Positions 1,025 to 21,871 of a stretch of DNA of 37,209 bases are shown here, one piece after another; the stretch's first letter is position 1; the number at the start of each line of letters is the position of its first letter. The notes below the pieces were generated by a model that searched no databases, was not told where the DNA came from, and saw nothing but the letters and a program-made list of their open reading frames with translations. The stretch covers positions 1 to 37,209 of the forward strand of contig CACNSW010000019.1 in NCBI GenBank assembly GCA_902623185.1, read 5' to 3'. This DNA is from an uncultured SAR116 cluster alpha proteobacterium (GTDB lineage Bacteria; Pseudomonadota; Alphaproteobacteria; Puniceispirillales; Puniceispirillaceae). The translations under genes and the position numbers were made by a program.

Positions 1025-1642
1025 ATGCGTTTAGGATCACACGTAAAAAAATCGATATACCTAATTTGTTTTGTTTTTGGGCTCTCAACGCCACTAAAGG
1101 CCGATATGGACTTTAGCCTAATTCAATTAGGTAGCTCGCAGACACAAACTCAGGAAATTCTCTCAAAGAACGGTTTTCTTTTTGCCAAAGTCACTGAGGC
1201 TGGATTTGATGCAAGAAAAATAGCGCTGACGTCGAAAATTGACAATCCAAGAAAAGAAATAAAAGAAATTCCACCTCGGGTAGATTTTGCAGATCTCTAC
1301 TACTCTACAAAAATATCAGGGAAGTTTTGCGCGGGAAAATTATATGAATTGAACGTCTCATCCTACTATGAAGCAGAAGATGAGCTAAATATCTGGTCAG
1401 GGCGGCGATTAATTTATGAATACTTAGAAAAGAATAAAGCAATTATGGAAAAGCTATCACTGTCAAAAAAAGATGGTGACCCAAATGTCGGTTTTAGGTT
1501 TAACATCGATCGGTCTGCATCTGGAGGATCGGTAAAGGGTGTTGAGAACGTGACGTTAATGATCGATGCTAGCGGTAGTTCGGGATTAAACTTATTGGAA
1601 ATGAGGTATAAGTTCTCCAATAAATGGTTTTGCCCAGAGTGA
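1025..1642 (+). CDS. Small exported protein, unknown function
   Basis: The protein is 205 residues. It starts at an ATG with a clear Shine-Dalgarno sequence AAGGAGAT nine bases upstream. Residues 1-26 are a signal peptide: basic start, hydrophobic YLICFVFGLS core and a probable cut after LKA. The mature protein is periplasmic by inference. It has one cysteine in KFCAGK near the middle and one two residues from the end (WFCPE), which could form a disulphide. The middle is hydrophilic, and a Gly/Ser-rich loop (SASGGS) lies near residue 165. No family is recognised. It sits between the coiled-coil gene and the Tat-substrate gene, all on the same strand. Confidence 0.8.
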   Translation: MRLGSHVKKSIYLICFVFGLSTPLKADMDFSLIQLGSSQTQTQEILSKNGFLFAKVTEAGFDARKIALTSKIDNPRKEIKEIPPRVDFADLYYSTKISGKFCAGKLYELNVSSYYEAEDELNIWSGRRLIYEYLEKNKAIMEKLSLSKKDGDPNVGFRFNIDRSASGGSVKGVENVTLMIDASGSSGLNLLEMRYKFSNKWFCPE

Positions 1643-1773
1643 TTGGACTAATCTTTCAAATCGATCTTAAGGTTTGATGATTTTTGAGGAAGCGTTTGGG
1701 TAGGTAATCATATTTCCCCAATACGACTAAAATGAAAATGCCTTCTCCTTTCAATAACTGACTTGGGGTTGAA

Positions 1774-3051
1774 TTGCTTCGTCGTGATTTTTTTAAGAAT
1801 ACTGGATTAGCTGCCTCAGCATATATCGGCTTTGTGACTCAGTCTCAAGTGGCTCTCGCCGGCTTGCCTGGAACAGTAACATGGGGTGGTGTTTATTTGC
1901 TTGAAGAAAGCCCAGACTTCATGCCATTCACACGCAAAGCGTTACAGCTCACTGGAAATGAAAGTCCCTCCGGAGAAAGTGCTAACAGAACCCTAGTCAA
2001 GGAAATTAAGTCAACCGATTGGGAAAACACTGGTATCGACCTTCGTGCAGGATTAAAAAAGAAAGTGACCAGGTATGGAATGGTATTTGGCCTTGCTGCT
2101 GAGCAGGTACTAGCATCCATACACTTGCCGCAAATATCTGCTACACAATATATTCTCCGTCAGATAGGCTACGTGATAGTTTATGATATTGTCGAACGCA
2201 GGATTGTTTCCTGCATTGCAGTGAGAGGACGATACCTTGACGAGCAACCCGGTGCTCCAAATAAAGAAATACTATCCACTCTATTTTTCAATTTGTTAGC
2301 ACAAAAAAATCAAAGGGGAAGCATAGCTAGCTTTATGCTCGAAAAAATAAGGGAATATCCCTTCGAAGAAAAATATCAAGGTAACTATTTCCAAGTGGAT
2401 GGCATAAAATTTTCAGAACTTTCGCTTCTGCATGCTGAGCAATTAAGTGTGGACACCAACCGCTACGCAGATGAGGTCGGCTTTGCCGCAACAACAGCTT
2501 TCTCAGAAGTTTTACAGTGTCCTTTAGTGCCATATCGAAAAGTCTCTGCTGTAAATAAAAACTTGATAAGTGAAATGAAAATTGTTTCCACTTCTGGTGA
2601 GAGTGCGCTTAATACAACTTTACCTCTTAAATCCGCAGATTGCGGCATACAAATCACTCATGAGGGTTGGGAATTTCAAATCACCAGATCGAGTGATGTT
2701 CGCAATGAAGTGGCCCTGGTCACACGTATTTCAATTATCATGTATGAAAAAACATCTGAGAACACATTTTTCAATCAAAGCTACTATGGCCGGCAAGATT
2801 TTAACGAATTACCTCAAGCAGGATTGAGCATAGACAGAGTATCCCGCCTGTTTATGATGCATGAGACTATTCTCGATAGCGCTTTTAAAGGCATCAGATC
2901 AGATCAAATAAGGGGATCAGTTTATGACGGTATAGAAACACTGGCCCCCGGTCAAAAAACATTTATACAAGCTGACGCCCAAAACTGGGATGAATTCAGT
3001 GCAGAATGCAAAAATGTTTTTGCTCGCTTGCCCCGAAAATTTGGTGGCTGA
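1774..3051 (+). CDS. Tat-exported protein of unknown function
   Basis: A 425-residue protein with an apparent TTG start (1774) and only a weak G-rich ribosome site. The N-terminus has a twin-arginine motif (LRRDFFK) followed by a hydrophobic stretch ending VALAG. It should therefore be exported folded through the Tat pathway, often a sign of a cofactor or obligate folding in the cytoplasm. The body has no motif I recognise. A region around residues 100-200 (LAAEQVLASIHLPQ, YVIVYDIVERRIVSCIAVRG) looks like an alpha/beta fold. The gene converges on the minus-strand operon; the 59-bp gap (3052-3110) is AT-rich without a clear hairpin. Coding confidence is high; function is unknown. Confidence 0.82.
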   Translation: MLRRDFFKNTGLAASAYIGFVTQSQVALAGLPGTVTWGGVYLLEESPDFMPFTRKALQLTGNESPSGESANRTLVKEIKSTDWENTGIDLRAGLKKKVTRYGMVFGLAAEQVLASIHLPQISATQYILRQIGYVIVYDIVERRIVSCIAVRGRYLDEQPGAPNKEILSTLFFNLLAQKNQRGSIASFMLEKIREYPFEEKYQGNYFQVDGIKFSELSLLHAEQLSVDTNRYADEVGFAATTAFSEVLQCPLVPYRKVSAVNKNLISEMKIVSTSGESALNTTLPLKSADCGIQITHEGWEFQITRSSDVRNEVALVTRISIIMYEKTSENTFFNQSYYGRQDFNELPQAGLSIDRVSRLFMMHETILDSAFKGIRSDQIRGSVYDGIETLAPGQKTFIQADAQNWDEFSAECKNVFARLPRKFGG

Positions 3052-3110
3052 TTTAGCCAAAACAAAAAACAAAAAAATTTGCCGCTAGATACTACCCAAA
3101 TTAGATTGAG

Positions 3111-4604
3111 TCACCGTTTTTTCTTCTTTTTTGGTGCTAAGACATTTGTTCCAACCACAACGTTTGTTGGAGTCAGTTCAACATTAGTGCGGGTCGCATA
3201 GTTAATTATTCCCTCACGGACTGAACAGGCCTTTATACGCATCACCCCAATTTCTGACATTAAATCTATAGTGTCTTGATTTAAAACATCACCACTGCCG
3301 GATGCTAGAAACGTCACACCGTAAGCTAAAGTCAAAGAATGAGCATCCGCAACATAGACTTCGGTCTTACCAAAAAGAGCTTTTATTTTTGGTAACGCTG
3401 AAGCTTCCATTTTTTTGAGGGTGCTAAGTTGATTATTTAAACTATTTTGAAAGTCATCTGTAACGACAAGTAATTCAGACAAAGTTGCGATCGATGGATT
3501 TGCCTGGTTGGCTAACTCCGCAAAAACTGCTTTATACCGCTCTAAATCCACTCCGGCCTTACTAATCTCCGCTAGATCAATCAACAATTGACCGCGGGTT
3601 ATTGTAAGGTTGTATACTTCATCTCTGAAGATAGCCGCCACACTGCTGTTTCCAGAGTTTTGTCGAAGTTGTTGTTGGACGTTTTGCCTTGTCTCCTCCG
3701 CAGCATTTATTAGATCAATATACAAGTCACGATTCTCGTAGGACGGGTTTAAAACAACAGACATAAACTCATTTTCAATGATCTGAGCAAGATCTCCCTC
3801 GCGTTGTTGAGATTTTTCAAAGGTAGGACGCATCCAACTTGCAGCATTTGTAAGATTAACGTTGCGACCGTATCCACGCGCCCATCTGAGACCTTCAATG
3901 AACCTCGCCCCGTATTGATCTTTTTTGGCTGCTTCTTTCAGGAGTTTGTCGCCCAACGAGCTATTTCCCCCAACTCTTTCATAATATTTGTGGACAAGCC
4001 CATATGCAAATCTTGCATCATTGGCGATTATCTTCTTTTTCTTATCAAAACCACCCTTTTGCATTGTAGTAGCCATAATGGCCAAATCACGAATATTTGG
4101 CATTTTTACAAAATTGGAAAATAATTGTGAGACTTCCTCACTGTCAAAGGCCATCACATACTGTTCGAGAGAAACAAGATAAGGCGCGCTAGGTCTCACT
4201 GACTTCGATAACATCAACGTTATCTCAGCCTCGCTTTTTCTGAAATCCTTGACCAAAACTGGTATGTCTGGCTTTCCGAGTTGTGCGTAAAGGCCTTTCG
4301 ATGCTAACGGCCTACAAATAAAATTTAGAGTTTTGTTTCCAGAAGCGATAGCATTAATGTTGCCTTCGTTTGAATTTGTTGATTGCAAACTTTGAACTTG
4401 CAAATCACTGCTTGGGTTTACTTGTTGCGTGGCAGGCTGTTGAGTTGTGGTTTCCAAGTTTAGTGTGCCCTCTTGAAGTTTTTTTGCGACTTCATCAAGC
4501 TCATTTTTCATTTTATTTAAATCGTCAAACAACCCTGCAGACGCTAGCGTTGGTAAAACGAGCACGAGGCCCACAACAAAAAATGAAATAGGCTTACACA
4601 TCAT
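3111..4604 (-). CDS. Exported Sel1-repeat-type protein, last gene of minus operon
   Basis: A 497-residue protein starting at tandem ATGs (4604 and 4601) behind a G-rich ribosome site. Residues 1-23 are a signal peptide ending LASAG. A coiled-coil segment follows (DDLNKMKNELDEVAKKL), then a Gln/Thr/Ser-rich linker. Around residues 195-250 the pattern ANDARFAYGLVHKYYER followed by ARFIEGLRWARGYGRN resembles Sel1/TPR helical repeats, which usually bind other proteins. The C-terminus ends in a very basic KKKKKR tail. It lies 9 bp after the previous gene's stop, so it is the distal gene of a four-to-five gene operon with the CsgG/FlgT-like gene. A periplasmic scaffold role is inference. Confidence 0.8.
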   Translation of the reverse strand: MMCKPISFFVVGLVLVLPTLASAGLFDDLNKMKNELDEVAKKLQEGTLNLETTTQQPATQQVNPSSDLQVQSLQSTNSNEGNINAIASGNKTLNFICRPLASKGLYAQLGKPDIPVLVKDFRKSEAEITLMLSKSVRPSAPYLVSLEQYVMAFDSEEVSQLFSNFVKMPNIRDLAIMATTMQKGGFDKKKKIIANDARFAYGLVHKYYERVGGNSSLGDKLLKEAAKKDQYGARFIEGLRWARGYGRNVNLTNAASWMRPTFEKSQQREGDLAQIIENEFMSVVLNPSYENRDLYIDLINAAEETRQNVQQQLRQNSGNSSVAAIFRDEVYNLTITRGQLLIDLAEISKAGVDLERYKAVFAELANQANPSIATLSELLVVTDDFQNSLNNQLSTLKKMEASALPKIKALFGKTEVYVADAHSLTLAYGVTFLASGSGDVLNQDTIDLMSEIGVMRIKACSVREGIINYATRTNVELTPTNVVVGTNVLAPKKKKKR

Positions 4605-4613
4605 TTGTCCCCC

Positions 4614-5810
4614 TTAACGCTCCGCTTGCCGAAGAAAAACCTCTGATATTGCTATGTAACCAGCAAACTCAAGGGCGCTTGCCAAATTTCTAAGTGAGAG
4701 TAACGTTGGTTGTCGCTCAAATTCAACAAATCTTTCTAGTAAAGTAAAAAATTCCAGAGGCTCCAGCATAGGCGAGGTATCTGTTTGGCCATCCAGATCT
4801 ATTGACGTGACCAATAGTTTATCATGATTTTCTGAGTGTGCGCCCGAGTCAAGGTCGTCCAAAAAATTTACTGGAACATCACCGAAACTTCGGATGATGA
4901 GTTTGGTCAACCAAGCCGAGGGGTCTATAATTTCAAATTTCTCTAAAATTTCGAGTTCTTTAACAACACTTTTTTTCTGCTTAACATCAAAAACGGTATC
5001 TCCTCCATAAGATTTTATTTTGAGCACTCCATCGCCTTGGTCTGATATTTTTTCAAGAAATAAACAAGGCTTGTCAAAACGATCAGCCAATGAATGCAAT
5101 TCTTCATTTTTTAGTGAAACTATAAGTTCCTGACAGACGTATGGGTTAAAAGGTGCTCGATCTAATAACCTCAAAAAACCACGCACGTCTGAAGAAGTGA
5201 TATCCATTTCGAGTGGTATACCACTAAATTTAAAGTCACGAGGTAAAAGTTGAGGTTTTTTTAATAGCATAGCATATGAATTGCCCTCCAAAATTTTGCG
5301 CCAAAAAGCCAATGCATCCTCGAACAAATTCAACTCTGGGTACGCTAAAGCCAACTCCATTGCAAATTCAGGTGATAAAAACGAAGAATGACTTTCTATT
5401 AAGCGTGATAACTCATCCATCAATAATTCATCATTTATTTTTGGCGAAGCCGCTGGAACTTCTCCCATAAACGTAAAATCTGACCCACCAGGTTTATTTT
5501 CTCTTTGTTTAATTTTTAGATTGGAGATAGATACTGATTGGTAGAGTGAGAGGCGTAAGATATTCTCAACCTTCTTCCTATGCAGAGAGTTTATTTTCTT
5601 CGGAAGAAATGAAACATTCTCGTAATACAAATCCAAAATCTTCGATTGCGCCATGAGAACAGCACGATCGTTAAATATTTTTTGTTCCAGAGTAGTTTTT
5701 GGGCTCTTCAAAAAAAACGAGACCTCAACCGTTCTAACTTCTGCATGGGAAGAAATTGGGTTGAGAATTAGTAAAGAACCTAAGACTATGTAAATGATTT
5801 TAGAAATCAT
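4614..5810 (-). CDS. Exported protein with an LPP20/FlgT-N-like first domain
   Basis: I chose the ATG at 5810, not the in-frame ATG at 5852, because it puts a normal signal peptide (MISKIIYIVLGSLLILN, cut after SSHA) at the start; this gives 398 residues. The start overlaps the upstream stop by 11 bp, a sign of translational coupling. The first ~100 mature residues (VRTVEVSFFLKS, many A/L/K helices, then ISNLKIKQRE) resemble the small alpha/beta domain of LPP20 and FlgT N-terminal regions; this is a weak similarity by eye. The rest is helical (FAMELALAYPELNLFEDALAFW looks TPR-like). It probably works with its operon neighbours in the periplasm. Confidence 0.78.
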   Translation of the reverse strand: MISKIIYIVLGSLLILNPISSHAEVRTVEVSFFLKSPKTTLEQKIFNDRAVLMAQSKILDLYYENVSFLPKKINSLHRKKVENILRLSLYQSVSISNLKIKQRENKPGGSDFTFMGEVPAASPKINDELLMDELSRLIESHSSFLSPEFAMELALAYPELNLFEDALAFWRKILEGNSYAMLLKKPQLLPRDFKFSGIPLEMDITSSDVRGFLRLLDRAPFNPYVCQELIVSLKNEELHSLADRFDKPCLFLEKISDQGDGVLKIKSYGGDTVFDVKQKKSVVKELEILEKFEIIDPSAWLTKLIIRSFGDVPVNFLDDLDSGAHSENHDKLLVTSIDLDGQTDTSPMLEPLEFFTLLERFVEFERQPTLLSLRNLASALEFAGYIAISEVFLRQAER

Positions 5811-7221
5811 CTTCTGTTGTATTGGCGCCAGACGATCCTGAAACTCCAACACTTAATTTATTTCTAGATATTGAGCTGCTGTTTGAGGAAGAACCTGTAG
5901 CTCCGGACTGCTGTTTTGGATCGGTTGCCTTTTTGATTGGTTGATTATTAGCATTAATTTCAGCACGAGACTTTTCCATAGAGGAAGGCGTCCAAACAAG
6001 AATTGTACCAGCAATAGGTTGATTAGAAACAGGATGTTTTACACCCCAATATTTTGGTGTGGCTCCAACTATATCTAACCCTGACGAGGCTGATTTTATA
6101 GCCACATCTAAGGCCGATCCTCCTTCATAAACTTCTCCACCATCGGCAAGTTCAGCATAAGACGAGTAATTCTGAGACACCTTAGTCTTTACCGCAATTT
6201 CGCCCATAAATGTGCGCAATATACCTTGAGCTCGGGCTAAAGATTCCTCCTTCGCCGATTTAAGCATTAATTTAGAGTTAGACTTTGCGCCAGCTTGAGC
6301 ATATGAAATTACGGCATAATTACCTGTTTCATCTCTTACAATTTGAACCCCATAAGAGGTCAGCAGCTCCAAAAGCCCTGCATTCGTTTTTGGATTGGGG
6401 ATATGCTGTGTAAGTGGCTTGCCGGCTTTTGCGGGAGGTAAATAATTTGCGTCTTGAGCGACCAATGCACGCGCGACATTGCGTAAATTTTCAGATGTCA
6501 CGATGACAACACACAACTCTCCCTTCATTCCTTTTCGTGATGTTTCTGCTACAAAAGCACGACTTACCCCAATCAACATTTCCTGTGATAAAGTGTTCAC
6601 AACATTGTTGAAAGTCCTGCCACCAAGTTGCCCTATAATTTCATCAGCTTCCTCTGCAGTATTTGGTGTTGGCGGCGCTGATTCCTCAAGCTTGCTGTCC
6701 AACTCGCGATGAATTAACTCAAGTGATTTGCCAAAGGCGGAAGCTAAATCGCGATTATCAACAGATGCCGCACGGCCGTCTTCAGTCGATGCTTCAGGAA
6801 AATTACCCGCAAAAAGACGTGAGGAAACTTCACGGGTCACTTTTGCGCGAAGTGACTCAAGCATAAGGCCTTTTGCATCGAGAACAGCCTCTTCATATGC
6901 ATTCTGACGCTCATTGATATAATTAGCGTGACCGGGCGAAACAGCCACGATACCTGTGCCAACAGCCACTGAAAAAGGCTTTTGGGGATTGTCCCAACCC
7001 TTTGCCTGAACATGATCATCACAAACCGTAGAAACACCATCGATTGTTTCAAGAACAATCTCAGCCTCAGCATCAAGGTCTAAAAGATCGTCATTGGCCA
7101 AAACCAGGTTTGGAAAAATTAGCGTGGAAACAACCACAAAAAAGATACCAAAAAAAAGGTTCTTCAAACCAAGACAAACCTTCTGTACTTTTGACAAACT
7201 GGATGCAACGCGGTCGCGCAT
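5800..7221 (-). CDS. Exported LPP20/FlgT-N-like periplasmic protein
   Basis: A 473-residue protein. The ATG at 7221 follows an AGGGAG ribosome site that lies inside the last codons of the gene before it (3-bp gap). Residues 1-43 are a signal peptide with a long N-region, cut after LVLA. After an acidic stretch, a domain near residues 80-150 has the pattern PFSVAVGTGIVAVSP followed by RQNAYEEAVLDAKGLMLESL. A beta strand and then a long helix starting with R/A residues is the LPP20-like layout; from memory it also resembles proteins filed as DUF6844. The C-terminus is Ser/Gly/Asn-rich and disordered. No catalytic motif is seen. Envelope structural role inferred from the neighbouring CsgG/FlgT-like gene. 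Confidence 0.8.
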   Translation of the reverse strand: MRDRVASSLSKVQKVCLGLKNLFFGIFFVVVSTLIFPNLVLANDDLLDLDAEAEIVLETIDGVSTVCDDHVQAKGWDNPQKPFSVAVGTGIVAVSPGHANYINERQNAYEEAVLDAKGLMLESLRAKVTREVSSRLFAGNFPEASTEDGRAASVDNRDLASAFGKSLELIHRELDSKLEESAPPTPNTAEEADEIIGQLGGRTFNNVVNTLSQEMLIGVSRAFVAETSRKGMKGELCVVIVTSENLRNVARALVAQDANYLPPAKAGKPLTQHIPNPKTNAGLLELLTSYGVQIVRDETGNYAVISYAQAGAKSNSKLMLKSAKEESLARAQGILRTFMGEIAVKTKVSQNYSSYAELADGGEVYEGGSALDVAIKSASSGLDIVGATPKYWGVKHPVSNQPIAGTILVWTPSSMEKSRAEINANNQPIKKATDPKQQSGATGSSSNSSSISRNKLSVGVSGSSGANTTEDDF

Positions 7222-7224
7222 AAA

Positions 7225-8499
7225 TTACTCCCTACTGAAACTTTGCTTTAATTCATTAACCCTGCTTTTAGCTTTTTTAACTCTTTCCTGAGCTGCATTG
7301 ATTTCGTCATCACGACCAGCGTGAACAGGTCTAAGGATAAATCTATAATTTGTTATTGGCGCAATATTTGCGTCAAAAAGTTCAATAATACGGCCGGTTG
7401 ATTGCTTCGGTAGCACTCTTTCAATTTCCACAAATCCAACTGGCGTTTCTTTGAACCCGATGCTTTCTCGGGTGTAAGGATCAATCAAGCGCTCACCTAA
7501 ACGTACCAAATCGTATATCTCACCACGCCTCATAGTTCGACCACCTTGACCAACAGTCACGATGTTACCTTCAACCGCAACGATGCGAGCAGGGTAAATC
7601 GCATTTTGGATCACTTGGCCAATAATACCTCCCCCTTTCTTTCCGAGAACCCGGTAGTCTTTGTCAGTTTCAATATAAATTGAGTCAGAGAACTTTATTT
7701 GCGATGTGGCTACATCAAGAATACGGATAACCACCTCACCGAATACTTTTTTACTCTCTTTTATCATATTGATGGTTTTCATCTTCTTTTGAAAGGTGAG
7801 CGTGTTCAAATCTATGAGTTTAATCAATACCAGGTAGTCTGCACCCACCTTGTTACCAAGGCGTGCTAACTCTGCTGTCGCCATTCCAGATGTCGCGATA
7901 TAATTCAGCTCTGCTTGTGTATCAGCAATATTACTTCGGTCAATCATTGCAAATCGACGGGTCTGAGTAAGGTAATTCACCACACTATTTTTTATGTCTT
8001 TAGCTGTTTGTCTAGCACTCTGCTGGTCCGTCACAGCGTTATCCACAGTGATATCAGTAACTGACAAACGGAGGCGTTTAAGCTGCTTTGATTTATTATA
8101 TTTCGCAACTTTGACGCTCAATTGAGCGACGTAGCTATTACCCAAAGCAGGGTCACGATTGACTGCGATAAGATCGTAGCTTTCAACAATCCCCTTTGTT
8201 GCCGTGACAATGGAGTTAGCAAATGCAGATGAAGCCGCATAAGTTTCGATGTTGTCCATCTCCAAGCTAACAGACTTGGTCTCAAAAGAAGTCTTAGATG
8301 ATACCTCTACACCGTTTACCATGCTTACTGCAGATTTTAATCCATCAACTACAGCGTCCCTTAAAGAAATTCCAACTCCCTCGACCGAAACTTCCACGCT
8401 ATTTATACTAGCAAAAGCAAAAGTAGGGCATACCATCGTGATGACTACCAGTAGGCGTAGCCATTTCCCTACCCTCGGATATTTAGGACGATTAAACAT
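7225..8499 (-). CDS. CsgG/HfaB-family protein with FlgT-like N- and C-terminal domains
   Basis: A 424-residue protein from the ATG at 8499; an upstream GTG at 8556 would overlap the previous gene but has no proper ribosome site. A signal peptide ends at FAFA. Residues about 35-125 fit a FlgT N-terminal domain: VEVSVEGVGISLRDAV, then GLKSAVSMVNGVEVSS. The middle (RFAMIDRSNIADTQAEL, ARLGNKVGADYLVLIK) is the CsgG/TolB-like alpha/beta core. The end (GNIVTVGQGG, YDLVRLGERLIDPYT, ETPVGFVEIERV) resembles the FlgT C-terminal domain. CsgG makes an outer-membrane pore for curli, HfaB anchors holdfast and FlgT forms a ring at the flagellar base. No lipobox cysteine is present, unlike CsgG. It is probably the outer-envelope ring of this locus. 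Confidence 0.85.
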   Translation of the reverse strand: MFNRPKYPRVGKWLRLLVVITMVCPTFAFASINSVEVSVEGVGISLRDAVVDGLKSAVSMVNGVEVSSKTSFETKSVSLEMDNIETYAASSAFANSIVTATKGIVESYDLIAVNRDPALGNSYVAQLSVKVAKYNKSKQLKRLRLSVTDITVDNAVTDQQSARQTAKDIKNSVVNYLTQTRRFAMIDRSNIADTQAELNYIATSGMATAELARLGNKVGADYLVLIKLIDLNTLTFQKKMKTINMIKESKKVFGEVVIRILDVATSQIKFSDSIYIETDKDYRVLGKKGGGIIGQVIQNAIYPARIVAVEGNIVTVGQGGRTMRRGEIYDLVRLGERLIDPYTRESIGFKETPVGFVEIERVLPKQSTGRIIELFDANIAPITNYRFILRPVHAGRDDEINAAQERVKKAKSRVNELKQSFSRE

Positions 8500-8545
8500 T
8501 CGACTAATTCCCGTTGCTGGCGCGCCTGCTCCTCTAAAGTCCAAA

Positions 8546-13171: not shown

Positions 13172-13250
13172 ACACGCTAATCTGTTACGGTATTTAAATT
13201 TAATTGAGCGGCGCCGCTTGCAAATTTCGTTTTAATTGAAAATCCATGTG

Positions 13251-14972
13251 ATGTTTAACCCTACAGATATACTCAGCTCTTGGTCAGAATTCAGGTTGCA
13301 GCCACCTTCTGAACATTTCGTAAATTGTCTGCGTAGTTTAGGCGATGCCCTTACACCATCGGGACAACCAGTTTACAACCGAGCCACTTTGATAAATTTA
13401 ACAACTAGTATTGCAAGTAGATCCTATGGGCCAGAACTATACAGAGCCTTATATGTATTAAAGGCTGCAGCGCTAACAAACACGAGCATTGACCGATTAA
13501 TCCTGCACGATACGCAGCTAACAGGGGCCATGATTCTACAACTTTTCAGCAACGGCACGCAAAGCCGATTACTAATAATTGAACAGCAGACACTCAACTT
13601 TTTAGACGACGTTACAGACAAACAAGAAATGAAGATAAGTGAGCAGCAACTACCGTTAGCAATAGCGATGATTGAATTCCTCATTGAGGCTCTAGGCTTT
13701 GAAGTTGTTTATCAAGCCTATCGAAAATTTTCGTTAACCGCTGACAACTTTAATGTCAAAACCACTACTAAAGCATTTTCCGCCACCTTGTATAGGTTTC
13801 TCGGCGAACATTTACCGAGTGCAAGCAGCCGACAAATGGCACAATTACTGTCAAATTACCTTAAAAGCTCACTCCAGGCCACCACCCCAAACCGACTTGG
13901 TGATTTAGCACCCAAAGATATCACGCCTGAAGATGTGACAGATGAAATCATCTTTAATTTTTGGTGTGATTATGCAAACGATGAGACCGTCTCTTTCCGT
14001 TTGTTTACCACTGCAGCCCAGGCATGGATAACGTACCGCACCGCGATTAAACTGGCGGCCAGCGATGCGTTTACAACGCATCAGTCCTTTGAACAATTAT
14101 TTCAGGAAGAGCAATACAATCCATCGGCAGAAGGAGGTAATAAAAAACCAATACAATCTGCGAGCACGCTTAGTGACGTTATTGGACAAATCTCCGCACC
14201 TACGAGGTGGATAGATGATCTAACTAGTGCGCCTTGCGACGAGATTAAATTCTTCACAAAGGTCGAACAAGAGGATATTGGTTTACCACTGTTGACTGGA
14301 GAGGCTTTTGGGCAACTTGTTTTGACATGTCTTAGGGTTTCTGTGTTTAGCCCGATTCAAAATAAAATAGTTCAAGAAAAACGTGAAAAATCTTCTGTCT
14401 CCTGCGCCTCAATATTCAATCAAATATCGAAAGATAGCTATGCCACCGTAATGAAAAGATGGCAAGAAATGAAGTTAGTAGCTAGTGGATTGTGCGACAC
14501 AGTTTTCTTCAGACTTTGGGAAGCTAGGGCGCCACAGGCCTTTGACTATTTTACAAAAAGAGGTACCGAGGAAGAGCGAAGCGCTCTAGCCAAAATTTCC
14601 AAAGACCAGTCCCTAACTTTAAGCAGACCGCCGAATCAAAGCATTGACTTGGATTCGATTGCCGCCAAAATTTTCGCCGCACTTGACACCATGCCCAGAT
14701 CGCACCCACTAAACGCTAGGAAATTAGCGATGCAAAAAACATCACATCGGTACCGCAGAAAAGGTTTGGTGCCAAACGAGTTGAATGGAAAGGATGCACA
14801 ATTTGACTGGATCAACGCGCTGGCCATCGGTGGCGACAGACTACACAAAATCGAGAGTTTTTTAAGCAAAGTTGACTTTATCACGCAGAGTCAAACGACT
14901 GAATTAAAGGCCAAAATAAATGCAGATAAAAAAAATTTTAAAGAGAAACTAATTTCCTTGTATGAGGTGTAA
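13251..14972 (+). CDS. Large soluble protein of unknown function
   Basis: About 573 residues from the ATG at 13251; a TTG at 13236 is an alternative and neither has a clear ribosome site. There is no signal peptide or membrane helix, so it is probably cytoplasmic, unlike most neighbours. The sequence is mostly helical, with leucine-rich stretches (LYRALYVLKAAALTN, LPLAIAMIEFLIEALGFEVV). There is no P-loop or other catalytic motif. It is 3 bp before the next small gene, which in turn overlaps the S16-protease gene, so the three should be made together and may form a cytoplasmic complex at the membrane face of the system. Confidence 0.8.
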   Translation: MFNPTDILSSWSEFRLQPPSEHFVNCLRSLGDALTPSGQPVYNRATLINLTTSIASRSYGPELYRALYVLKAAALTNTSIDRLILHDTQLTGAMILQLFSNGTQSRLLIIEQQTLNFLDDVTDKQEMKISEQQLPLAIAMIEFLIEALGFEVVYQAYRKFSLTADNFNVKTTTKAFSATLYRFLGEHLPSASSRQMAQLLSNYLKSSLQATTPNRLGDLAPKDITPEDVTDEIIFNFWCDYANDETVSFRLFTTAAQAWITYRTAIKLAASDAFTTHQSFEQLFQEEQYNPSAEGGNKKPIQSASTLSDVIGQISAPTRWIDDLTSAPCDEIKFFTKVEQEDIGLPLLTGEAFGQLVLTCLRVSVFSPIQNKIVQEKREKSSVSCASIFNQISKDSYATVMKRWQEMKLVASGLCDTVFFRLWEARAPQAFDYFTKRGTEEERSALAKISKDQSLTLSRPPNQSIDLDSIAAKIFAALDTMPRSHPLNARKLAMQKTSHRYRRKGLVPNELNGKDAQFDWINALAIGGDRLHKIESFLSKVDFITQSQTTELKAKINADKKNFKEKLISLYEV

Positions 14973-14975
14973 GTA

Positions 14976-15527
14976 ATGTCAGTTGAAACCGATAAAATTG
15001 AAATAGCTTTTGAACAACTGGTCGATATTCAAAATACAATCGATACTGTATTGAAGGTCCCAAAAAACCCAGGCCATATTGGTGTAAGGGATATGCTCCG
15101 TATCATCATTGGGCCACAAACTGACTCAGACCAAGAAAAGCTCTCAGAAATCTCAAGCAACTTTCTGGCACGGCGACAATTTAAAGCTTTGCTAAAAAGC
15201 CAGACACTGGCATCACAAACAAAACAAGCTGCTGCTTCAAGCAAGACCACAAGTGGTCAAGTACGAAGGTCAGGGGACGATTTTGATTTAAACCTTATCC
15301 CATCGACTGGAGACGACAAGCTTTTCTATATGCAGTTAAAAGTAAAGAACCATGAGCGTTTTGCACAAATTTCAAAAGCTGAAATGTTGTTTGTCGAAAG
15401 CAAAGGCGTGTTTTCTTCGGTCCCATTGCCTGAAATCTTGGATGGCGTGTCACAAATCATGATAAGGCAAGGTCATCCAGTTCTCGACGCATTCCATGAT
15501 CCAGAGGCAGAGTTTTTCATCAAGTGA
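14976..15527 (+). CDS. Small soluble protein of unknown function
   Basis: A 183-residue protein between the 573-residue soluble protein (3-bp gap) and the S16-protease gene (stop and start overlap by 4 bp). It has no signal peptide or membrane helix. A helical N-terminal half ends in a Gln/Ser/Thr/Lys-rich linker near residues 75-95 (LASQTKQAAASSKTTSG). A compact beta-rich C-terminal half follows (DLNLIPSTGDDKLFYMQLKV). The tight spacing points to strict co-expression with both neighbours. No family recognised. Confidence 0.8.
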   Translation: MSVETDKIEIAFEQLVDIQNTIDTVLKVPKNPGHIGVRDMLRIIIGPQTDSDQEKLSEISSNFLARRQFKALLKSQTLASQTKQAAASSKTTSGQVRRSGDDFDLNLIPSTGDDKLFYMQLKVKNHERFAQISKAEMLFVESKGVFSSVPLPEILDGVSQIMIRQGHPVLDAFHDPEAEFFIK

Positions 15528-16837
15528 GTTTGCATAATCTAATTGTTCCAACAACACGACACGCGGCACAGATTCTCTCGATCACTAGAGAGGATCCTGA
15601 TATTAGATCTGTAGTCTGTTTGAATGATAGTTTTCAGGCACTGCCAATAAGCAATGGATATGACCAATTTGTCCGCCGTCCAACCGGAATTATTGAAAAA
15701 CTACTTGGGCGCTCAGCCTATCGGATTGACGTGAGCGCGCCGGTAACGCAAGGAGACAGTTGGCAACTCGGCTTTTGCCTTGCACATCTCCTACATGATC
15801 AAGATCAGTTCTCGCCTACAAATGCAGATATAACTATCTGGGCAACGGGTGAAGTCGATCCACATTTTCGAGTGAGGCAAGTTGATCATATTGATGCCAA
15901 AATTAAAACATCATACGAGTTACTTGTGGCAGAGGAACGAGCGGGCCGAAAAGTAATGATTCTTGCGGCTCCTGAAAACATCCTAGAGCTAAGCGATTGT
16001 GTTCCCAAGGAATGGGACGTGCATGGTGTTGCCACTTTAAATGAAGCTTGCGCTGCTCTTGGAATTCAAATGCCAGACAACCACGTCGTCCAATCACCGG
16101 ATACCGTAAAAACATCGGAAATGGAACCCAACCGCATAAAGAAGTATTTATCTGCCACTGTAATTGCATTAGTTGCTCTTGTTGGTGTCAACATGCCATA
16201 TCAATCATTAACTGATAGTTTTAAGTATGAACGTGATGGTCAATTGCGCGCCCTAAGAATGGAAATGCGCAAAATCAACAGACAGAAAAATTGGGTTGCG
16301 ACAAATGCCTTTTATTTCTTTGAGGTTTTTTTTCTATTGCGTAAATCAAGCCAACTAGAGCGTTCTCTGAGCATCACCACGCTTACTTTAAATCAGGATT
16401 CAACCGCTCAATCTGAAACAGACCTAATATGTGCACGCCTTTCTGGTGCAATAGTATCAGCAAAAAATTTATCACTTGTCCCAAAAACCGGTTGTCCGGT
16501 AACTTTCAATGTAAAGAGCAAAGCCAAATCAGATGTAAGAGTATGGCTAGCTGTTATCGACCAAGATAATGACGGTAGTCCATTAACCATAATGAAGCAT
16601 GGGGCAGACATCAAACCTGGCCAGCAGTTTGTTACACCAACAGTGACTATAAACAACCAAAAAACACTCTTAATCGCAGCCATTTCTGATAGGCCTGATG
16701 AAGCCTGGAGTGGCTGGTTCAATAATCTGCTCCTTTCTGACACTTTTGATATTATTGAACTCGAAGTTGATCGCCTCACATCAACTGGTGTTGGCGTCTT
16801 TCAAGCCCGCTGGCAACCTTTCATCGAGCTTGATTAA
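15524..16837 (+). CDS. Membrane-tethered Lon-type (S16) protease domain protein
   Basis: A 437-residue protein with a GTG start overlapping the previous stop. Residues ~60-150 resemble the Lon C-terminal proteolytic domain: VSAPVTQGDSWQLGFCLAH places a candidate nucleophile Ser79, and ITIWATGEVDPHFRVRQV followed by DAKIKTS places a candidate Lys (126 or 128), then AGRKVMILAAP. There is no AAA+ ATPase domain. A single membrane helix lies at about 206-225 (LSATVIALVALVGVNM). The outer part (~300-437) is beta-rich (CPVTFNVKSKAKSDVRVWLA) and faintly like DUF4384 domains. This layout, cytoplasmic protease domain then helix then periplasmic domain, suggests signalling or regulated cleavage. It ends exactly against the convergent operon's last stop. 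Confidence 0.72.
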   Translation: MSLHNLIVPTTRHAAQILSITREDPDIRSVVCLNDSFQALPISNGYDQFVRRPTGIIEKLLGRSAYRIDVSAPVTQGDSWQLGFCLAHLLHDQDQFSPTNADITIWATGEVDPHFRVRQVDHIDAKIKTSYELLVAEERAGRKVMILAAPENILELSDCVPKEWDVHGVATLNEACAALGIQMPDNHVVQSPDTVKTSEMEPNRIKKYLSATVIALVALVGVNMPYQSLTDSFKYERDGQLRALRMEMRKINRQKNWVATNAFYFFEVFFLLRKSSQLERSLSITTLTLNQDSTAQSETDLICARLSGAIVSAKNLSLVPKTGCPVTFNVKSKAKSDVRVWLAVIDQDNDGSPLTIMKHGADIKPGQQFVTPTVTINNQKTLLIAAISDRPDEAWSGWFNNLLLSDTFDIIELEVDRLTSTGVGVFQARWQPFIELD

Positions 16838-18061
16838 TCATGCACACTTTCCCTCATGTAATCGAATTTGACCTGGTAACAAGACACCATTGTGTGTCAC
16901 CTTATGAAGGAAAAGTCCATCTTGGCTTAACATATATTCGGCTGTGATTTGCCCAGTAAAATGTTCCACACTACCAGTTAATTTGCTAAGCCCTGCCAAC
17001 AACTTAACATCCATATCCTTACGAAATATTCTTATCAAATTACCGGTGCCAGCGACATTTTGCATCGACGCAACGACGCGTGCTTCATCTATGGTCACAG
17101 GTTTTTCTAACGAACGTAAAAGTGGTGAATAAAGATTTTTGTTGAACGAATTAACCCCCTGTCCCGGCGCTAGAATGACGTGTCCTGAAGAATCAATCCG
17201 ACCGACAATCATGCCAAGACAGTGCGTTAATGCTTGATAAATTTGTCTGTGCGTTGATGTATTGGCTGGCCACAGAAATTCTATTGATGGCAGGGAATCC
17301 TCATCGTTTATCTGTTGATATGCTCTGGCGACATCAGCAGCATTGGAATTTATAACAAAGTTAGCAGACTCCTCGCCCGCTAGCGTATTGATCTTGCTCC
17401 GGTTGCTTTTCGCAAGATTTGTTGGCATTTCCTCTGGCGTCAGTATGTTGTCCACTAAAGAGTGCCTTAGATCAATCAGTGGATTACTTGAAGACAAACC
17501 GACAAAATTTGACTCTATTTGCGTAATCGGTGAAATTTGAGTTCGGCGCATTGTTCCACTATCGTCGGTTGTTTTCATTGGCACAACAGAAGGCTTGATC
17601 CGTCTGGGTTCTTGGATAACAGCTACAACTTCTTGATATGTCTGGGTTCCAATTTTTTTGTGGATCTCATTATGTAGTGGTGAGCGTAGAGGCGTCAGCC
17701 TATCGAAACTTGAGATCTCTTTTAAAGGGGTAAGCTTTGTTTTGAGCTCTGTCTTGTTCACCCCTTCTGGCATTTTTTGAACTAACACATCCAAAGCTCC
17801 ACGATCATCACTATTTGCGATCTCTTCTTGCTGTCGCAAAGCCAGAGAGGGTCTAGGTATAGACGCCACCCACAATTTTGCCAGCGTTTCAGGCGTTTTT
17901 CTTGCGTTAAATGGCTCGCTCTTACTCTTCGCTAGCAACTGAGCTTTAATAGTTTCATCTTCTCTATGGGAGAAGGATAGGTCTGGCAACGTTATTGAGG
18001 TAACAATTGCCAGACCCAGGAGGAACCCCATATTGATCCAACCAGAAAAGTGTTTAGACAT
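16838..18061 (-). CDS. Single-pass membrane protein with periplasmic C-domain, unknown
   Basis: A 407-residue protein starting 1 bp after the previous stop, with AGGA as ribosome site. Residues 8-27 are a membrane helix or uncleaved signal (INMGFLLGLAIVTSITLPDL). Residues 30-230 are low-complexity and probably extended, as in proteins that cross the periplasm. The last ~160 residues form a domain (LPSIEFLWPANTSTHRQIYQ, LGMIVGRIDSSGHVILAPGQG) with two cysteines, one in THCLGM and one in the final EGKCA. The anchor, long linker and terminal domain are TonB/TolA-like in shape only, not in sequence. It is the last gene of the operon containing the TolQ/ExbB-like gene. Confidence 0.78.
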   Translation of the reverse strand: MSKHFSGWINMGFLLGLAIVTSITLPDLSFSHREDETIKAQLLAKSKSEPFNARKTPETLAKLWVASIPRPSLALRQQEEIANSDDRGALDVLVQKMPEGVNKTELKTKLTPLKEISSFDRLTPLRSPLHNEIHKKIGTQTYQEVVAVIQEPRRIKPSVVPMKTTDDSGTMRRTQISPITQIESNFVGLSSSNPLIDLRHSLVDNILTPEEMPTNLAKSNRSKINTLAGEESANFVINSNAADVARAYQQINDEDSLPSIEFLWPANTSTHRQIYQALTHCLGMIVGRIDSSGHVILAPGQGVNSFNKNLYSPLLRSLEKPVTIDEARVVASMQNVAGTGNLIRIFRKDMDVKLLAGLSKLTGSVEHFTGQITAEYMLSQDGLFLHKVTHNGVLLPGQIRLHEGKCA

Positions 18062-18062
18062 G

Positions 18063-18809
18063 CTAAATTCCTGTATGTTCCAAATACAACATGTTTAGTT
18101 GCTGAATTATTTGTGACATATCTTCAGCACGTTGCCTTGGTGACATAAATGCTGGTGTTTGCTCAGAAGGCTGAAAAGATTTTTCGTCCTGGAAAACAAC
18201 TATTTCTGACTTTTCTAAAGTGTCGTTTTCAATTTTTTCAAAGGCACTAAAGGCGGCGGCAATCTCAGCATCATTCATTTTCCCAGGATCTTTAATTGGC
18301 TGTTGCTGCACAATTTCATCTAGCCCTTCTGATACTTCGGCTTGTGGTAAAACCGTTTTCGTTTTATTCACCGTATGAGTTTCCTCGGTTCCGTTTACAG
18401 GCGGTTTCTCATGCAAATCTTCAAATGGCGTTGATTTGGATATTTTGGCGGGCACGGATGTAACTTCCTCAGCAGCCGCCTCTTTCATGGCAGTTACAAT
18501 TAACTGCTTTATTTCATCAGCATTCATTGACACCTGTCTTTTTAGTGGGTTCGGCTCTGAAGCGAGGGAACCCTGAGTTTTATCATCCAGCGCCTCCAAA
18601 CTCTCACTTGCTGCCTTGGCAACGGCTTTTGCAAATACGGTGCCGGTCTCAGCAATGCTGTCGTTGGCAATCGTCGTATCCGTGGGTGGCGTATCGCTCC
18701 AAACATCCAAGGTAGTTGTTATCCATTGGGTAAACGACTGATTTGATGAGCCCGTAAAAAGATAGGCGAGAGCTACCAACACAGTAATATTGAAAATCAA
18801 GTATCGCAT
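18063..18809 (-). CDS. TonB/TolA-shaped single-pass membrane protein
   Basis: I chose the ATG at 18809 because GAGGAGA lies six bases upstream; an ATG at 18827 encodes that ribosome site as codons. The result is a 248-residue protein with one N-terminal helix (MRYLIFNITVLVALAYLF). The rest is acidic, Glu/Thr/Ser/Ala-rich and probably extended. It is placed directly after the TolQ/ExbB-like gene (10-bp gap), where TonB, TolR or TolA-type genes are often found. No conserved TonB C-terminal domain is visible, and the helix lacks the ExbD-type acidic residue. A linker or energy-transducing role is inference from shape and position. Confidence 0.72.
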   Translation of the reverse strand: MRYLIFNITVLVALAYLFTGSSNQSFTQWITTTLDVWSDTPPTDTTIANDSIAETGTVFAKAVAKAASESLEALDDKTQGSLASEPNPLKRQVSMNADEIKQLIVTAMKEAAAEEVTSVPAKISKSTPFEDLHEKPPVNGTEETHTVNKTKTVLPQAEVSEGLDEIVQQQPIKDPGKMNDAEIAAAFSAFEKIENDTLEKSEIVVFQDEKSFQPSEQTPAFMSPRQRAEDMSQIIQQLNMLYLEHTGI

Positions 18810-18819
18810 TATTGTCTCC

Positions 18820-19398
18820 TCAAGCATTGCTATGATTTGCGATCAGTCGGCGCGTGCTATTTTTGCACTTACGTTCTACGGTCGCCAACGACGAGGCGTT
18901 GGCAACAATCAACACCGTCCGCAAAAAGGCCGAAAGCGGTAAACCAATTACCGATGTCATGAAGGCAAGACTGAAATGGTCTGTAAGTCCGGCAATAACT
19001 TCATTAATGTTACTTGGGGATAAACTGCTGTCAGAGAGTTGACCTATACCAAGACTAATCCCAAGTAAGGTGAAAGTTAGCGCAAGTGTCGCTATGCCGT
19101 TACAAGTCTGTTGTCCCGCTTGAAACCATTTCCTTCGCTGCCCATCGCGAAAATTATTGTCTCGGATCTTGTTTGCCTCGAAAATTTTTACAACACTCAA
19201 TAGGCTAACAAATACTAGAACGGTGAGGAGCATTAAAAAAGGCAAGCCAAGAACATTAACTGCCCATTCCGTAAACTGTGCCACCGTCCTGTCAAAGAAT
19301 AGGACAATTATAGCTAGAGCAATCACCATACTGCCCAACATGAGGCTTAATGTTTTCAAGCTGGCATCGCATTTTGGTATTAACGCCAAATACCTCAT
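18820..19398 (-). CDS. TolQ/ExbB/MotA-like proton-channel family protein
   Basis: A 192-residue protein with four likely membrane helices (about 16-36, 47-70, 102-121 and 143-168) and a short cytoplasmic loop between helices 2 and 3 (EANKIRDNNFRDGQRRKW). The third and fourth helices carry the family pattern: NGIATLALTFTLLGISLGIG, then INEVIAGLTDHFSLAF and TSVIGLPLSAFLRTV. Compare ExbB/TolQ, where a small-residue, Thr-containing TM3 and the AL..TA.GL..A.P TM4 line the ion path. Pentamers of such proteins surround a dimer of ExbD/MotB proteins and use the proton gradient to rotate. The start overlaps the previous stop by 4 bp. The likely partner is at 11952-12350. Family call by eye. Confidence 0.75.
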   Translation of the reverse strand: MRYLALIPKCDASLKTLSLMLGSMVIALAIIVLFFDRTVAQFTEWAVNVLGLPFLMLLTVLVFVSLLSVVKIFEANKIRDNNFRDGQRRKWFQAGQQTCNGIATLALTFTLLGISLGIGQLSDSSLSPSNINEVIAGLTDHFSLAFMTSVIGLPLSAFLRTVLIVANASSLATVERKCKNSTRRLIANHSNA

Positions 19399-19778
19399 CT
19401 GCTGACCCTTGCATTCATCAAGTCACTTGTTGTCAAACCCATTGTTTCTAGCCAGTGCACCATCACTGGTTTTTGGCTCTCGGTTGCTGCATGGACAAGG
19501 AAAGACAATTCATAGTCTTTGAACGCTCTCAATACAGACGGTTTACGGCTAGACTGGAGTGATTTGTCGTTGAGAGTAATGCGCTCGAGGTCTGCCATCC
19601 GTCTTTTCGTGAAATTCATCCGCTCCCACCTTTGTTGGGCCGACATTGCGGGATCAAGCATCTGCTCTATAGCAACGGCCCGTTCCCGCTCCATGTTTTC
19701 AATTGATCCTGCATGCGCAGTCGCAATAGGACCGATGGCACCAGCCATTGCTATTAAGAGTGATAGATAAAGTTTCAT
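19395..19778 (-). CDS. Small exported protein, unknown function
   Basis: From the ATG at 19778, which has GGAG six bases upstream; an ATG at 19790 would read through that site. The product is about 127 residues with a clear signal peptide (MKLYLSLLIAMAGAIGPIAT, cut after AHA). The mature part is helical and charged (ENMERERAVAIEQMLDP, RMADLERITLNDKS) and ends in a hydrophobic, Met-rich segment. It has no cysteine. Its stop overlaps the TolQ/ExbB-like start by 4 bp (ATGA), so translation is coupled to the motor protein; a periplasmic partner of the motor is a reasonable guess. Confidence 0.78.
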   Translation of the reverse strand: MKLYLSLLIAMAGAIGPIATAHAGSIENMERERAVAIEQMLDPAMSAQQRWERMNFTKRRMADLERITLNDKSLQSSRKPSVLRAFKDYELSFLVHAATESQKPVMVHWLETMGLTTSDLMNARVSR

Positions 19779-19875
19779 TTGTTTCTCCATTAGTCTTCAT
19801 TTTTAGAGTTATTTTTAGGTTTGATTGAACTTTAGGTCCTGCGCGGCTTGCGGTATTTACATGCGGTCACAATAG

Positions 19876-20760
19876 TTAAAACGTGATGAACATTTTTACA
19901 TTTTCCCTTGGTGAAAGCATCGTTTGAACTTTATTTCCAGCTTGATCTTGCCATGCCTGCTCGGCCAATTTTTCTGCAAAGGCCATTGCGTCAAATGAAA
20001 GAAGTTTTGCCATATGACCTATAATTTCCTGCTCCATGCTTAAAGCGGCTAATTCCGCTTCTGTTTCAATAATCATTGCCTGCAATTCGTCCAATTTGCT
20101 AATGGGCTGGCCATCACTAATTTGTTGCCTGTTAGCGGGGTGAGCAGAAATCGCTTCACGAAGCGCTTCAATCGCAGCCCTGTTCTCAGCATAATCCTGA
20201 CTGAATTTGCTTTCAGGTTGGTTTACGCTATAGAACAGTTCTTCTCGGAGTTTGGACTCCACCGCGCTTGATCTAATCCTAGCTTGATCAATAACGAGAT
20301 TTAACTCTTGAGTATCCCTGTTTCTCGACTCACTCTGCCTGGATTGCTTCATTAAACGCTGATAAAGAGCCCGTTTTGTCTCCAATTGCTGGGCTTTGAG
20401 GCTAACCTGACTACCCATCATCTCTAAATAATTGCGCTTACCAACAATAATTTGATGCTCAACTTCAAGAGCTTCCTCTCCTTCGTACAAACTCTGATTC
20501 TCTTGCAGCGAGGTAATATTTGAAATCTCCCCACCAATTTTTTGGTCAAGCGTCTGCATGTCGTCTGCCAAAAGAGAATTCGCAAAATCTCTTTCAATAG
20601 CCTGTTCGAGGTGCTTTGTTGGTAACATAAGGATTTTTTCGCTAATCTGCGGTTGCCATGACACATTGCTTGCTAGCAATTCGCCCGAGTTCATCAGTAG
20701 CCAGTTGCTGCTAACCAAGCTCGCCATAATTATTCGACACAACTTTGATCTCTTGATCAT
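19876..20760 (-). CDS. Exported coiled-coil protein
   Basis: I chose the ATG at 20760, preceded by CAGGAGAA; the longer frame to 20808 overlaps the upstream gene without a ribosome site. The 294-residue product has a signal peptide (RIIMASLVSSNWLLMNSG, cut near LLAS). It is then almost all helical with heptads (LVIDQARIRSSAVESKLREE, LQAMIIETEAELAALSMEQE), so a long periplasmic coiled coil is likely. No catalytic motif. The gene lies 26 bp after the lipoprotein gene and 97 bp before the small exported protein gene, within the same operon. A spacer or tether role between the membranes is inference. Confidence 0.78.
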   Translation of the reverse strand: MIKRSKLCRIIMASLVSSNWLLMNSGELLASNVSWQPQISEKILMLPTKHLEQAIERDFANSLLADDMQTLDQKIGGEISNITSLQENQSLYEGEEALEVEHQIIVGKRNYLEMMGSQVSLKAQQLETKRALYQRLMKQSRQSESRNRDTQELNLVIDQARIRSSAVESKLREELFYSVNQPESKFSQDYAENRAAIEALREAISAHPANRQQISDGQPISKLDELQAMIIETEAELAALSMEQEIIGHMAKLLSFDAMAFAEKLAEQAWQDQAGNKVQTMLSPRENVKMFITF

Positions 20761-20786
20761 AATTTTCTCCTGTTCAGCTTTTGCGA

Positions 20787-21335
20787 CTAATTCTTTTGCC
20801 AGTACCAAGCACGGCGAATTTCGTCCTTTACACGGGACTTGGCATTTAGCGACGAAAGAGCTAACTGCTCACGCTGGTCGTTTTGGAAAAAAAGAAGCGC
20901 GTGCATTGTGCTGGTAAACGAACTTCCATCTGAAAAAATCAGGTCGCCCGGTCCGAACTTTTCTTCAAATTTGTTCAACGCCAAACGAGCTTTTGCGACG
21001 TCTCCTCCCTTAAGGTAATTTTGAACTGCCAAAGCTGATATCTGCATTCGGTCGCGTTTATCTGCAAGTTGAGTAGAACTGCCAAGCTGGTCATCACAAG
21101 TTACAAGCATGTCTGCACTGCTTAAATACAAAGCCGGATCCATTGCCTTTGAAGCTGATATATCCCGTGTTTTACCCTCGTTGACGCAATCATTGAAGGC
21201 AAGCACCGCCTGCATGTCTAACGCACGCTCAACAACATTTGTTGAAGGTCCTGGCGTCTGTGCTGTTGTCATAGGATTACATGCTGCCAGCAACGCTAAT
21301 CCTACAATGCCAACTGATATAGTGAATGGTCTCAT
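20787..21335 (-). CDS. Lipoprotein, unknown function
   Basis: A 182-residue protein with an AGGAGA ribosome site and a textbook lipobox: hydrophobic ISVGIVGLALLAAC with Cys19, followed by Asn-Pro, which does not force inner-membrane retention, so outer-membrane placement is likely. The mature part is helical with TPR-like spacing (VLAFNDCVNEGKTRD, ISALAVQNYLKGGDVAKARLAL), typical of small assembly lipoproteins (pilotins). Cysteines in FNDCVN and VTCDDQ could pair. The gene lies between the glycine-zipper gene (38 bp) and the coiled-coil gene. It could guide or anchor an outer ring; that role is inferred. Confidence 0.82.
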   Translation of the reverse strand: MRPFTISVGIVGLALLAACNPMTTAQTPGPSTNVVERALDMQAVLAFNDCVNEGKTRDISASKAMDPALYLSSADMLVTCDDQLGSSTQLADKRDRMQISALAVQNYLKGGDVAKARLALNKFEEKFGPGDLIFSDGSSFTSTMHALLFFQNDQREQLALSSLNAKSRVKDEIRRAWYWQKN

Positions 21336-21373
21336 TTTTTTCTCCTAATCTGGTTAATGTGTATCTGCCAAAT

Positions 21374-21871
21374 TCAGCGCAGCACACTAAACTCGGACGA
21401 CACGCGGACACGAACCCGCTCGTTAATCTGGTAAGGACGGGAAGAATCAAACTTAAGCCTCTGCGCTCCCGTGCGGACATGGATCACGTAGTGGCTTGGA
21501 TATTTTTCAGTGTGATTTGTATAGGTAGTTTCTCTGACGCATTTATGTCGTTGTTTGTTAGTTGATGCAGTCCACGCACCAGCAACGGCGCCGAGGGTGC
21601 CGGCGCCATGATTATCGCTAAGCTTGTTGCCAATCGCAGATCCGATGAGACCACCCACAACTAGATCGCCAAGCGAGATGTTCTGCGATTTGTTGGCATT
21701 GCGACAGGTTGTTGTAGAAATGGGTTCGCTAACAATCCTTGTTGCCCATACCGCTTGGGAACGTGTAACATAACCGTCGCGGAACTCTGTAATTTGTTCT
21801 GCTATTGCTGCAGAAGCGGATGCATATGTAAGACATACCCCGACAGCTAACTTAGCAATATTGAGCTTCAT
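21374..21871 (-). CDS. Exported glycine-zipper (17-kDa surface antigen-like) protein, first gene of operon
   Basis: A 165-residue protein with a TCCTCC-complement ribosome site (AGGAGG in gene sense) and a signal peptide cut after SAAIA. Residues ~65-100 form a glycine-zipper 2TM segment: LGDLVVGGLIGSAIGNKL, a short Gly/His turn, then GTLGAVAGAW. This is the pattern of Rickettsia 17-kDa antigen and SlyB-like outer-membrane proteins. A basic, beta-rich C-terminus follows (YVIHVRTGAQRLKFD, RVRVRVSSEF). There is no lipobox. As promoter-proximal gene of the operon that includes the TolQ/ExbB-like gene, it may sit in or under the outer membrane. Confidence 0.85.
   Translation of the reverse strand: MKLNIAKLAVGVCLTYASASAAIAEQITEFRDGYVTRSQAVWATRIVSEPISTTTCRNANKSQNISLGDLVVGGLIGSAIGNKLSDNHGAGTLGAVAGAWTASTNKQRHKCVRETTYTNHTEKYPSHYVIHVRTGAQRLKFDSSRPYQINERVRVRVSSEFSVLR

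Follow-up and report, generated by a model that had tools for sequence, protein, structure and literature searches.

A conserved gene block of SAR116 and other proteobacteria with the predicted parts of an ion-driven envelope machine

What does a block of about 20 genes, most of them belonging to no named family, build in a marine SAR116 bacterium? The genes lie in the window analysed here, a stretch of 37,209 nucleotides that is contig C19 (CACNSW010000019.1) of a 65%-complete SAR116 (Puniceispirillales) assembly, and are lettered a to v by order of start position. An earlier note on this DNA had proposed a motor-driven envelope machine at 1025-21871 that matched no known system. Ion-driven motors of the kind in question are known in few machines: the flagellum, Ton, Tol, gliding, type 9 secretion and Zorya. 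We consider it just on the probable side that the cluster encodes an undescribed trans-envelope machine powered by the proton-motive force (PMF), in which a motor of r and k would work through an arm, p, in the export or assembly of a surface component via a CsgG-type ring.

The block is a genuine, ancient unit whose order is kept across two classes, and it thereby passes the test of co-occurrence beyond close relatives that the earlier note had set. In a first test, r and g, 11 kb apart, were searched independently in 61 relatives; r was found in 12 genomes, g in 14 and both in 10 besides the window's own. Around r and g the DNA of these carriers again holds the c-v genes, at 21-76% identity and with different flanks each time; G039 and G042 keep every module intact in a different arrangement, and G045 looks similar, its genes being spread over two contigs. 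A wide scan of 84,980 genomes with r then returned 80 named loci, 60 of them from Alphaproteobacteria (Rhodospirillales 26, Puniceispirillales 15, Hyphomicrobiales 2, Sneathiellales 1, unplaced 16) and the other 20 comprising 16 from Gammaproteobacteria (Alteromonadales 13) and four unplaced. Hidden Markov models (HMMs) made from the block genes and applied to all loci define a core of eleven families (k l m n o and u t s r q p) that commonly stand in this order as a single run. This same-order core is seen in Rhodospirillales, SAR116, Sneathiellales, Alteromonadales and one Oceanospirillales metagenome-assembled genome (MAG), between unrelated flanks.

When pairs were scored on loci having both genes, and adjacency was taken to mean neighbours on one strand, linkage was nearly complete on one arm (u-t 60/60, t-s 58/58, s-r 54/54, r-q 47/47, q-p 51/52) as on the other (n-o 40/40, m-n 39/39, k-l 32/34, l-m 30/34). 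All eleven core families occur together in 14 loci only; many of the loci are contig ends. Of 386 alphaproteobacterial genomes drawn evenly, 20 had r, 21 had p and 19 had both, where about one shared genome is expected; a phylum-wide draw added 6 strong carriers outside Alphaproteobacteria. Furthermore, a tree of five joined core proteins (one quick tree, built without a formal test) recovers the gammaproteobacterial loci as one clade and those of SAR116 as a second, and this grouping by taxon suggests long residence of the block, with its patchiness explained by loss. Plasmid records contained neither p nor t, and phage records did not contain t (p was sought in plasmids only).

Within the window, the conserved unit runs from c to v (1774-21871). 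The proposed border at 1025 does not hold, because no relative of gene b (1025-1642) occurs in the other carriers and the unit is therefore taken to begin at c. The open reading frames are otherwise arranged as had been described, in three co-directional sets: d-h on the minus strand (3111-9685), i-o on the plus strand (9883-16837) and p-v on the minus strand (16838-21871), with c (1774-3051, plus strand) outside them. Sets d-h and i-o are divergent, c/d and o/p convergent, and overlaps are short (4 bp for n/o and for r/s, 8 bp for q/r, 11 bp for g/h, 22 bp for t/u, 43 bp for k/l and 53 bp for e/f). Most cluster proteins have a predicted N-terminal signal or membrane segment, as expected from the statement that nearly all are exported or membrane-bound; m and n (13236-15527), which look cytoplasmic, depart from it. 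Two copies of core genes occur in some genomes, as in G323 (contigs C109 and C118) and in the MAG DUZD01 (loci L058 and L061).

What, then, would drive such a unit? The candidate motor subunit is r (18820-19398, minus strand), a protein of 192 aa with four membrane segments. A PADLOC scan of ten core window proteins matched only r, to seven ZorA profiles (best 4.5e-5); none of these ten matched ZorC, ZorD or ZorE. In member-by-member scans, 17 of the 37 r-family members matched the NCBIfam ZorA model (best 3.5e-5), and PF01618 (MotA_ExbB) was the commonest Pfam match of the family, albeit a weak one (0.035); r searched as a single sequence had no Pfam match. Against the PDB, the first r profile had 8vvn, a MotA/TolQ/ExbB domain protein, as its sole match (E 0.019), and a broad r profile matched no chain. 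The channel helices carry Thr104, Thr108 and Thr110 in 37/37 members and Thr148 in 36/37. By its sequence, r is a remote member of the MotA/TolQ/ExbB superfamily closest to ZorA, so the label "TolQ-like" is right at the level of the superfamily.

The putative partner of r is k (11952-12350, plus strand), 132 aa with one membrane helix and a short periplasmic domain. ExbD, TolR, MotB and ZorB are marked by a single N-terminal helix with a conserved aspartate; k has a helix there, and the carboxylate in it is a glutamate, Glu11, invariant in 29/29 sequences. In ZorAB and MotAB, the A ring presents Ser/Thr residues against which the B-subunit Asp packs (PMC11890865). Because the Glu/Thr pattern resembles that of ZorAB and MotAB and the two genes are linked, we infer that k is an ExbD/MotB-like partner of r. 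Carrier genomes have separate PF01618 matches above cut-off elsewhere, whose lengths and sequences are those expected for TolQ and MotA, and the best reading is that the cluster encodes a machine separate from the motors that serve Tol-Pal and the flagellum in the same genomes. In most of the SAR116 genomes examined, a further PF01618 protein of ~350-400 aa is encoded ~10-12 kb from tolQ (G010:C1:2498856-2499164 and equivalents).

How might the force of such a motor be passed on? Gene p (16838-18061, minus strand; a family of 75 members by HMM over all loci) encodes the three-part TonB/TolA layout of membrane helix, Pro-rich linker and folded C-terminal domain. In its AlphaFold2 model, a helix at 6-24 is followed by ~215 low-confidence residues, predicted to be a disordered linker with 16% Pro, and by a folded domain at 241-405. 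Its neighbour q (18063-18827, minus strand) shows in alignment a conserved N-terminal membrane helix, a variable linker and a short conserved C-terminal helix.

A cytoplasmic side is suggested by m, n and o. Gene m (13236-14972, plus strand) encodes a mostly helical, apparently cytoplasmic protein of 578 aa without a signal, whose one weak hydrophobic stretch lies inside a confident soluble helical model (predicted local distance difference test, pLDDT, 88; predicted template modelling score, pTM, 0.81). It has no known family in Pfam, and a fold search of the PDB gave scattered low scores (best VIA Z 5.8), taken as no match. Gene n (14976-15527, plus strand; 183 aa, 51 members) is likewise apparently cytoplasmic. 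Gene o (15524-16837, plus strand) combines an S16 (Lon-type) domain, a membrane helix and an extracytoplasmic domain, the S16 domain on a membrane helix that the earlier note had read in it: by profile, the region around the catalytic Lys matches Lon structures (E=7e-4), and Ser79 and Lys126 are invariant in 39/39 sequences. From its spacing to Lys126, Ser79 is the likely catalytic Ser of a predicted Ser-Lys dyad. One relative of o, in L090, contains DUF4384 (E=3.4e-13), another an FHA domain, and gammaproteobacterial clusters often include a Ser/Thr kinase, an FGE-sulfatase domain and FHA proteins. Caspase-like (Peptidase_C14) genes adjoin several clusters (L077:379-2220, with Pfam support, L065:407-2215, L094:278-2110, L060:12730-14124 and L031:741-2642).

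These components raise the main rival to an export or assembly role, namely an ion-driven envelope sensor or defence system in which r-k would detect damage to the wall or membrane, the role proposed for ZorAB, and m-n-o would respond; kinase/FHA signalling would take part, and a caspase-like protein is sometimes encoded close by. The closeness of r to ZorA, the patchy distribution, and the Lon-type domain, kinase, FHA and caspase-like genes by some clusters all speak for it. However, k lacks a ZorB-type wall-binding domain, the scanned core proteins include no other Zorya or PADLOC protein, periplasmic and outer-membrane parts dominate the gene set, the block is absent from the plasmid records searched for p and t and from the phage records searched for t, and the tree groups by taxon, unlike fast-moving defence islands. 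We regard the sensor or defence role as unlikely, if worth keeping in view.

The periplasmic and outer-membrane parts are several. Gene l (12308-13171, plus strand) encodes a membrane-anchored SLT lytic transglycosylase of 287 aa (PF01464, E=1.7e-24), the wall-cutting enzyme named earlier. On the opposite arm, u (20787-21335, minus strand; 182 aa) is an outer-membrane-type lipoprotein with lipobox Cys19, t (19876-20808, minus strand; 310 aa, 80 members) is mostly helical by pattern, predicted to be exported and conserved at 42% mean column identity across alpha- and gammaproteobacteria, and s (19395-19790, minus strand; 131 aa, 71 members) is a small, predicted exported protein. The candidate outer-membrane ring is g (7225-8556, minus strand), an exported protein of 443 aa. 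In the window it falls just below the LpoB cut-off (E=0.00095), and relatives in L034, L085 and L087 exceed Pfam cut-offs (CsgG 27.9 bits in L034, LpoB 32.9 bits in L087); via these relatives, g is by sequence a member of the CsgG superfamily, in keeping with the CsgG-like ring protein of the earlier note. The earlier note's "LPP20-like" label found no Pfam support, the families indicated being CsgG/LpoB for g and, weakly, GNA1162 for a lipoprotein that lies behind p in 27 loci of other alphaproteobacteria.

Since CsgG-superfamily proteins generally resemble flagellar outer rings, the block might be an accessory of the flagellum, an H-ring or stator-type add-on akin to FlgO/FlgP/FlgT, and FlhA is indeed found in 10/12 carriers vs 31/49 other genomes. 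Yet the block contains no flagellar gene and has its own motor subunits, and it is not restricted to flagellated genomes: a flagellar role was set aside because G039, 99% complete, carries the block and no FlhA, and we hold it to be very improbable. A surface-motility engine comparable to Agl-Glt, in which other parts would link to adhesins, would equally combine a TolQ-superfamily motor with periplasmic and outer-membrane parts. The carriers are marine, and several belong to particle- or polysaccharide-associated genera, which would suit gliding; against this, no Glt/Gld-type protein is recognised, no large adhesin lies within the cluster, and to our knowledge gliding is not known in most carriers. 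Such an engine seems distinctly improbable.

We therefore return to the PMF-powered machine for export or assembly. That it is proton-driven and envelope-spanning we infer from the sequences. In the proposed mechanism, r would form a MotA/TolQ/ZorA-type membrane channel surrounding the k helix, whose invariant Glu would take the role of the Asp in MotB/ExbD/ZorB, and ion flow via r-k would be converted into mechanical work. Protein p, and probably q too, would dock on the motor through their N-terminal membrane helices, and their disordered linkers would cross the periplasm as in TonB and TolA, so that the folded end of p could pull on or remodel an outer-membrane assembly. That assembly may consist of lipoprotein u, helical t, small s and a CsgG-superfamily lipoprotein (g in SAR116, GNA1162-like elsewhere), with l cutting the wall open for passage. 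On the inner side, m, n and the Lon-type domain of o could act as a cytoplasmic gate or control point, to which the gammaproteobacterial versions would add Ser/Thr kinase and FHA domains. The most likely output, and our favoured guess, would be energised export or assembly of a surface component via the CsgG-type ring.

Several results weigh against this account. A comparison of the r profile with SAR116 TolQ and MotA profiles, whose alignments are shallow, gave nothing. The ExbD-like label for k is based on its topology, invariant Glu and linkage; no HMM match to ExbD or MotB was obtained. The Ser-x3-His (SHLS) motif of TonB/TolA occurs in 1/42 p sequences, and the PDB search showed no recognisable fold for the C-terminal domain of p (scattered low scores, best VIA Z 2.3, taken as no match); the missing PDB matches for p and m are not proof of new folds. 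Finally, neither an outer-membrane receptor nor an exported substrate was identified for the cluster.

Is the system then a named one? Pfam gave no family for m, n, q, s, t, u, j or p, scanning the core proteins against Pfam and NCBIfam yielded no usable family beyond SLT, and searches of the freely accessible literature (DUF4384, Zorya, envelope machines) found no paper describing the cluster. With most core families unmatched in Pfam, the scanned ones unmatched in NCBIfam and PADLOC recognising r only, no named system was found to cover the whole set; together with the co-occurrence, this supports the motor-driven envelope machine of the earlier note at the level of anatomy. We put forward more tentatively, and at somewhat less than an even chance, that the system is categorically new: a minimal ZorA-like motor whose partner relies on Glu, a TonB-like arm with an unseen end fold, control from the cytoplasm by a Lon-type protease domain tethered to the membrane and by a new helical protein, and a surface product exported or assembled via a CsgG-type ring.

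The remaining genes are largely accessory. Gene c (425 aa), a SAR116-type accessory with an RR-containing N-terminus (possible twin-arginine translocation signal), has 15 family members, next to d-h or p in SAR116-type clusters. Genes d (3111-4604; 497 aa, signal-like N-terminus, 15 members), e (4614-5852; 412 aa, fast evolving, weak TPR match), f (5800-7221; 473 aa, its relative in L085 having a sub-threshold DUF6844) and h (8546-9685; 379 aa, lipobox-like Cys, no Pfam family), all on the minus strand, encode exported accessory proteins; in G021 (L033:15692-18259, plus strand) a single 856-aa frame spans h and g, a fusion or a lost stop. On the plus strand, i (9883-10878; 331 aa) and j (10958-11842; 294 aa, 41 members) encode exported paralogues with mutual blastp matches, and gammaproteobacterial carriers have FHA proteins that contain, as judged by eye, a domain like that of j. 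Gene v (21374-21871, minus strand; 165 aa, 26 members with weak glycine-zipper matches) encodes an exported glycine-zipper protein, again a SAR116-type accessory. Beyond the block lie a tRNA-Ser (25376-25465) and, 4 kb further, a tyrosine-recombinase-like gene (29602-30978, by eye) followed by few long open reading frames, possibly an integrated element adjoining the block.

If the proposal is true, a further motor machine, built mostly of unnamed families and long kept in abundant marine bacteria, would open a new branch of envelope biology; Terasakiella pusilla, Paraglaciecola hydrolytica and Glaciecola pallidula are cultured carriers in which it could be tested. Compared with known systems, the cluster shares with Zorya ZorAB (PMC11890865) the relationship of r to ZorA, Thr/Ser residues in the channel and a carboxylate on the partner helix, whereas r lacks the long ZorA cytoplasmic tail, and k has Glu rather than Asp and neither the wall-binding domain of ZorB nor a PADLOC match. 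Tol-Pal and Ton (TolQRA, ExbBD-TonB) likewise pair a motor with a transducer of membrane helix, Pro-rich linker and folded end and involve an outer-membrane lipoprotein; unlike them, p has no SHLS-type motif, no TolA/TonB end domain was found in it, the cluster contains no TolB, Pal or receptor, and the carriers' PF01618 motor genes sit separately, outside it. GldLM/type 9 secretion and AglRQS-Glt gliding are also motor-powered assemblies spanning the envelope, but no Gld, Spr, Por or Glt protein is recognised in the cluster. CsgG curli secretion and the Vibrio FlgOPT ring share CsgG-superfamily outer-membrane parts (g and the GNA1162-like lipoprotein); the cluster differs in having no curli or flagellar genes and in its predicted coupling to an ion-driven motor. 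The von Willebrand factor A (vWA) force transducers with TolQ-like motors (PMC12204202) have another gene set, and the end domain of p showed no match with a vWA fold, yet they too are genome-predicted, undescribed PMF-motor systems of TonB-like layout. Work on force transducers and on the evolution of these motors describes sets that are related yet different, and states that others are still to be discovered (PMC12204202, PMC12505986).

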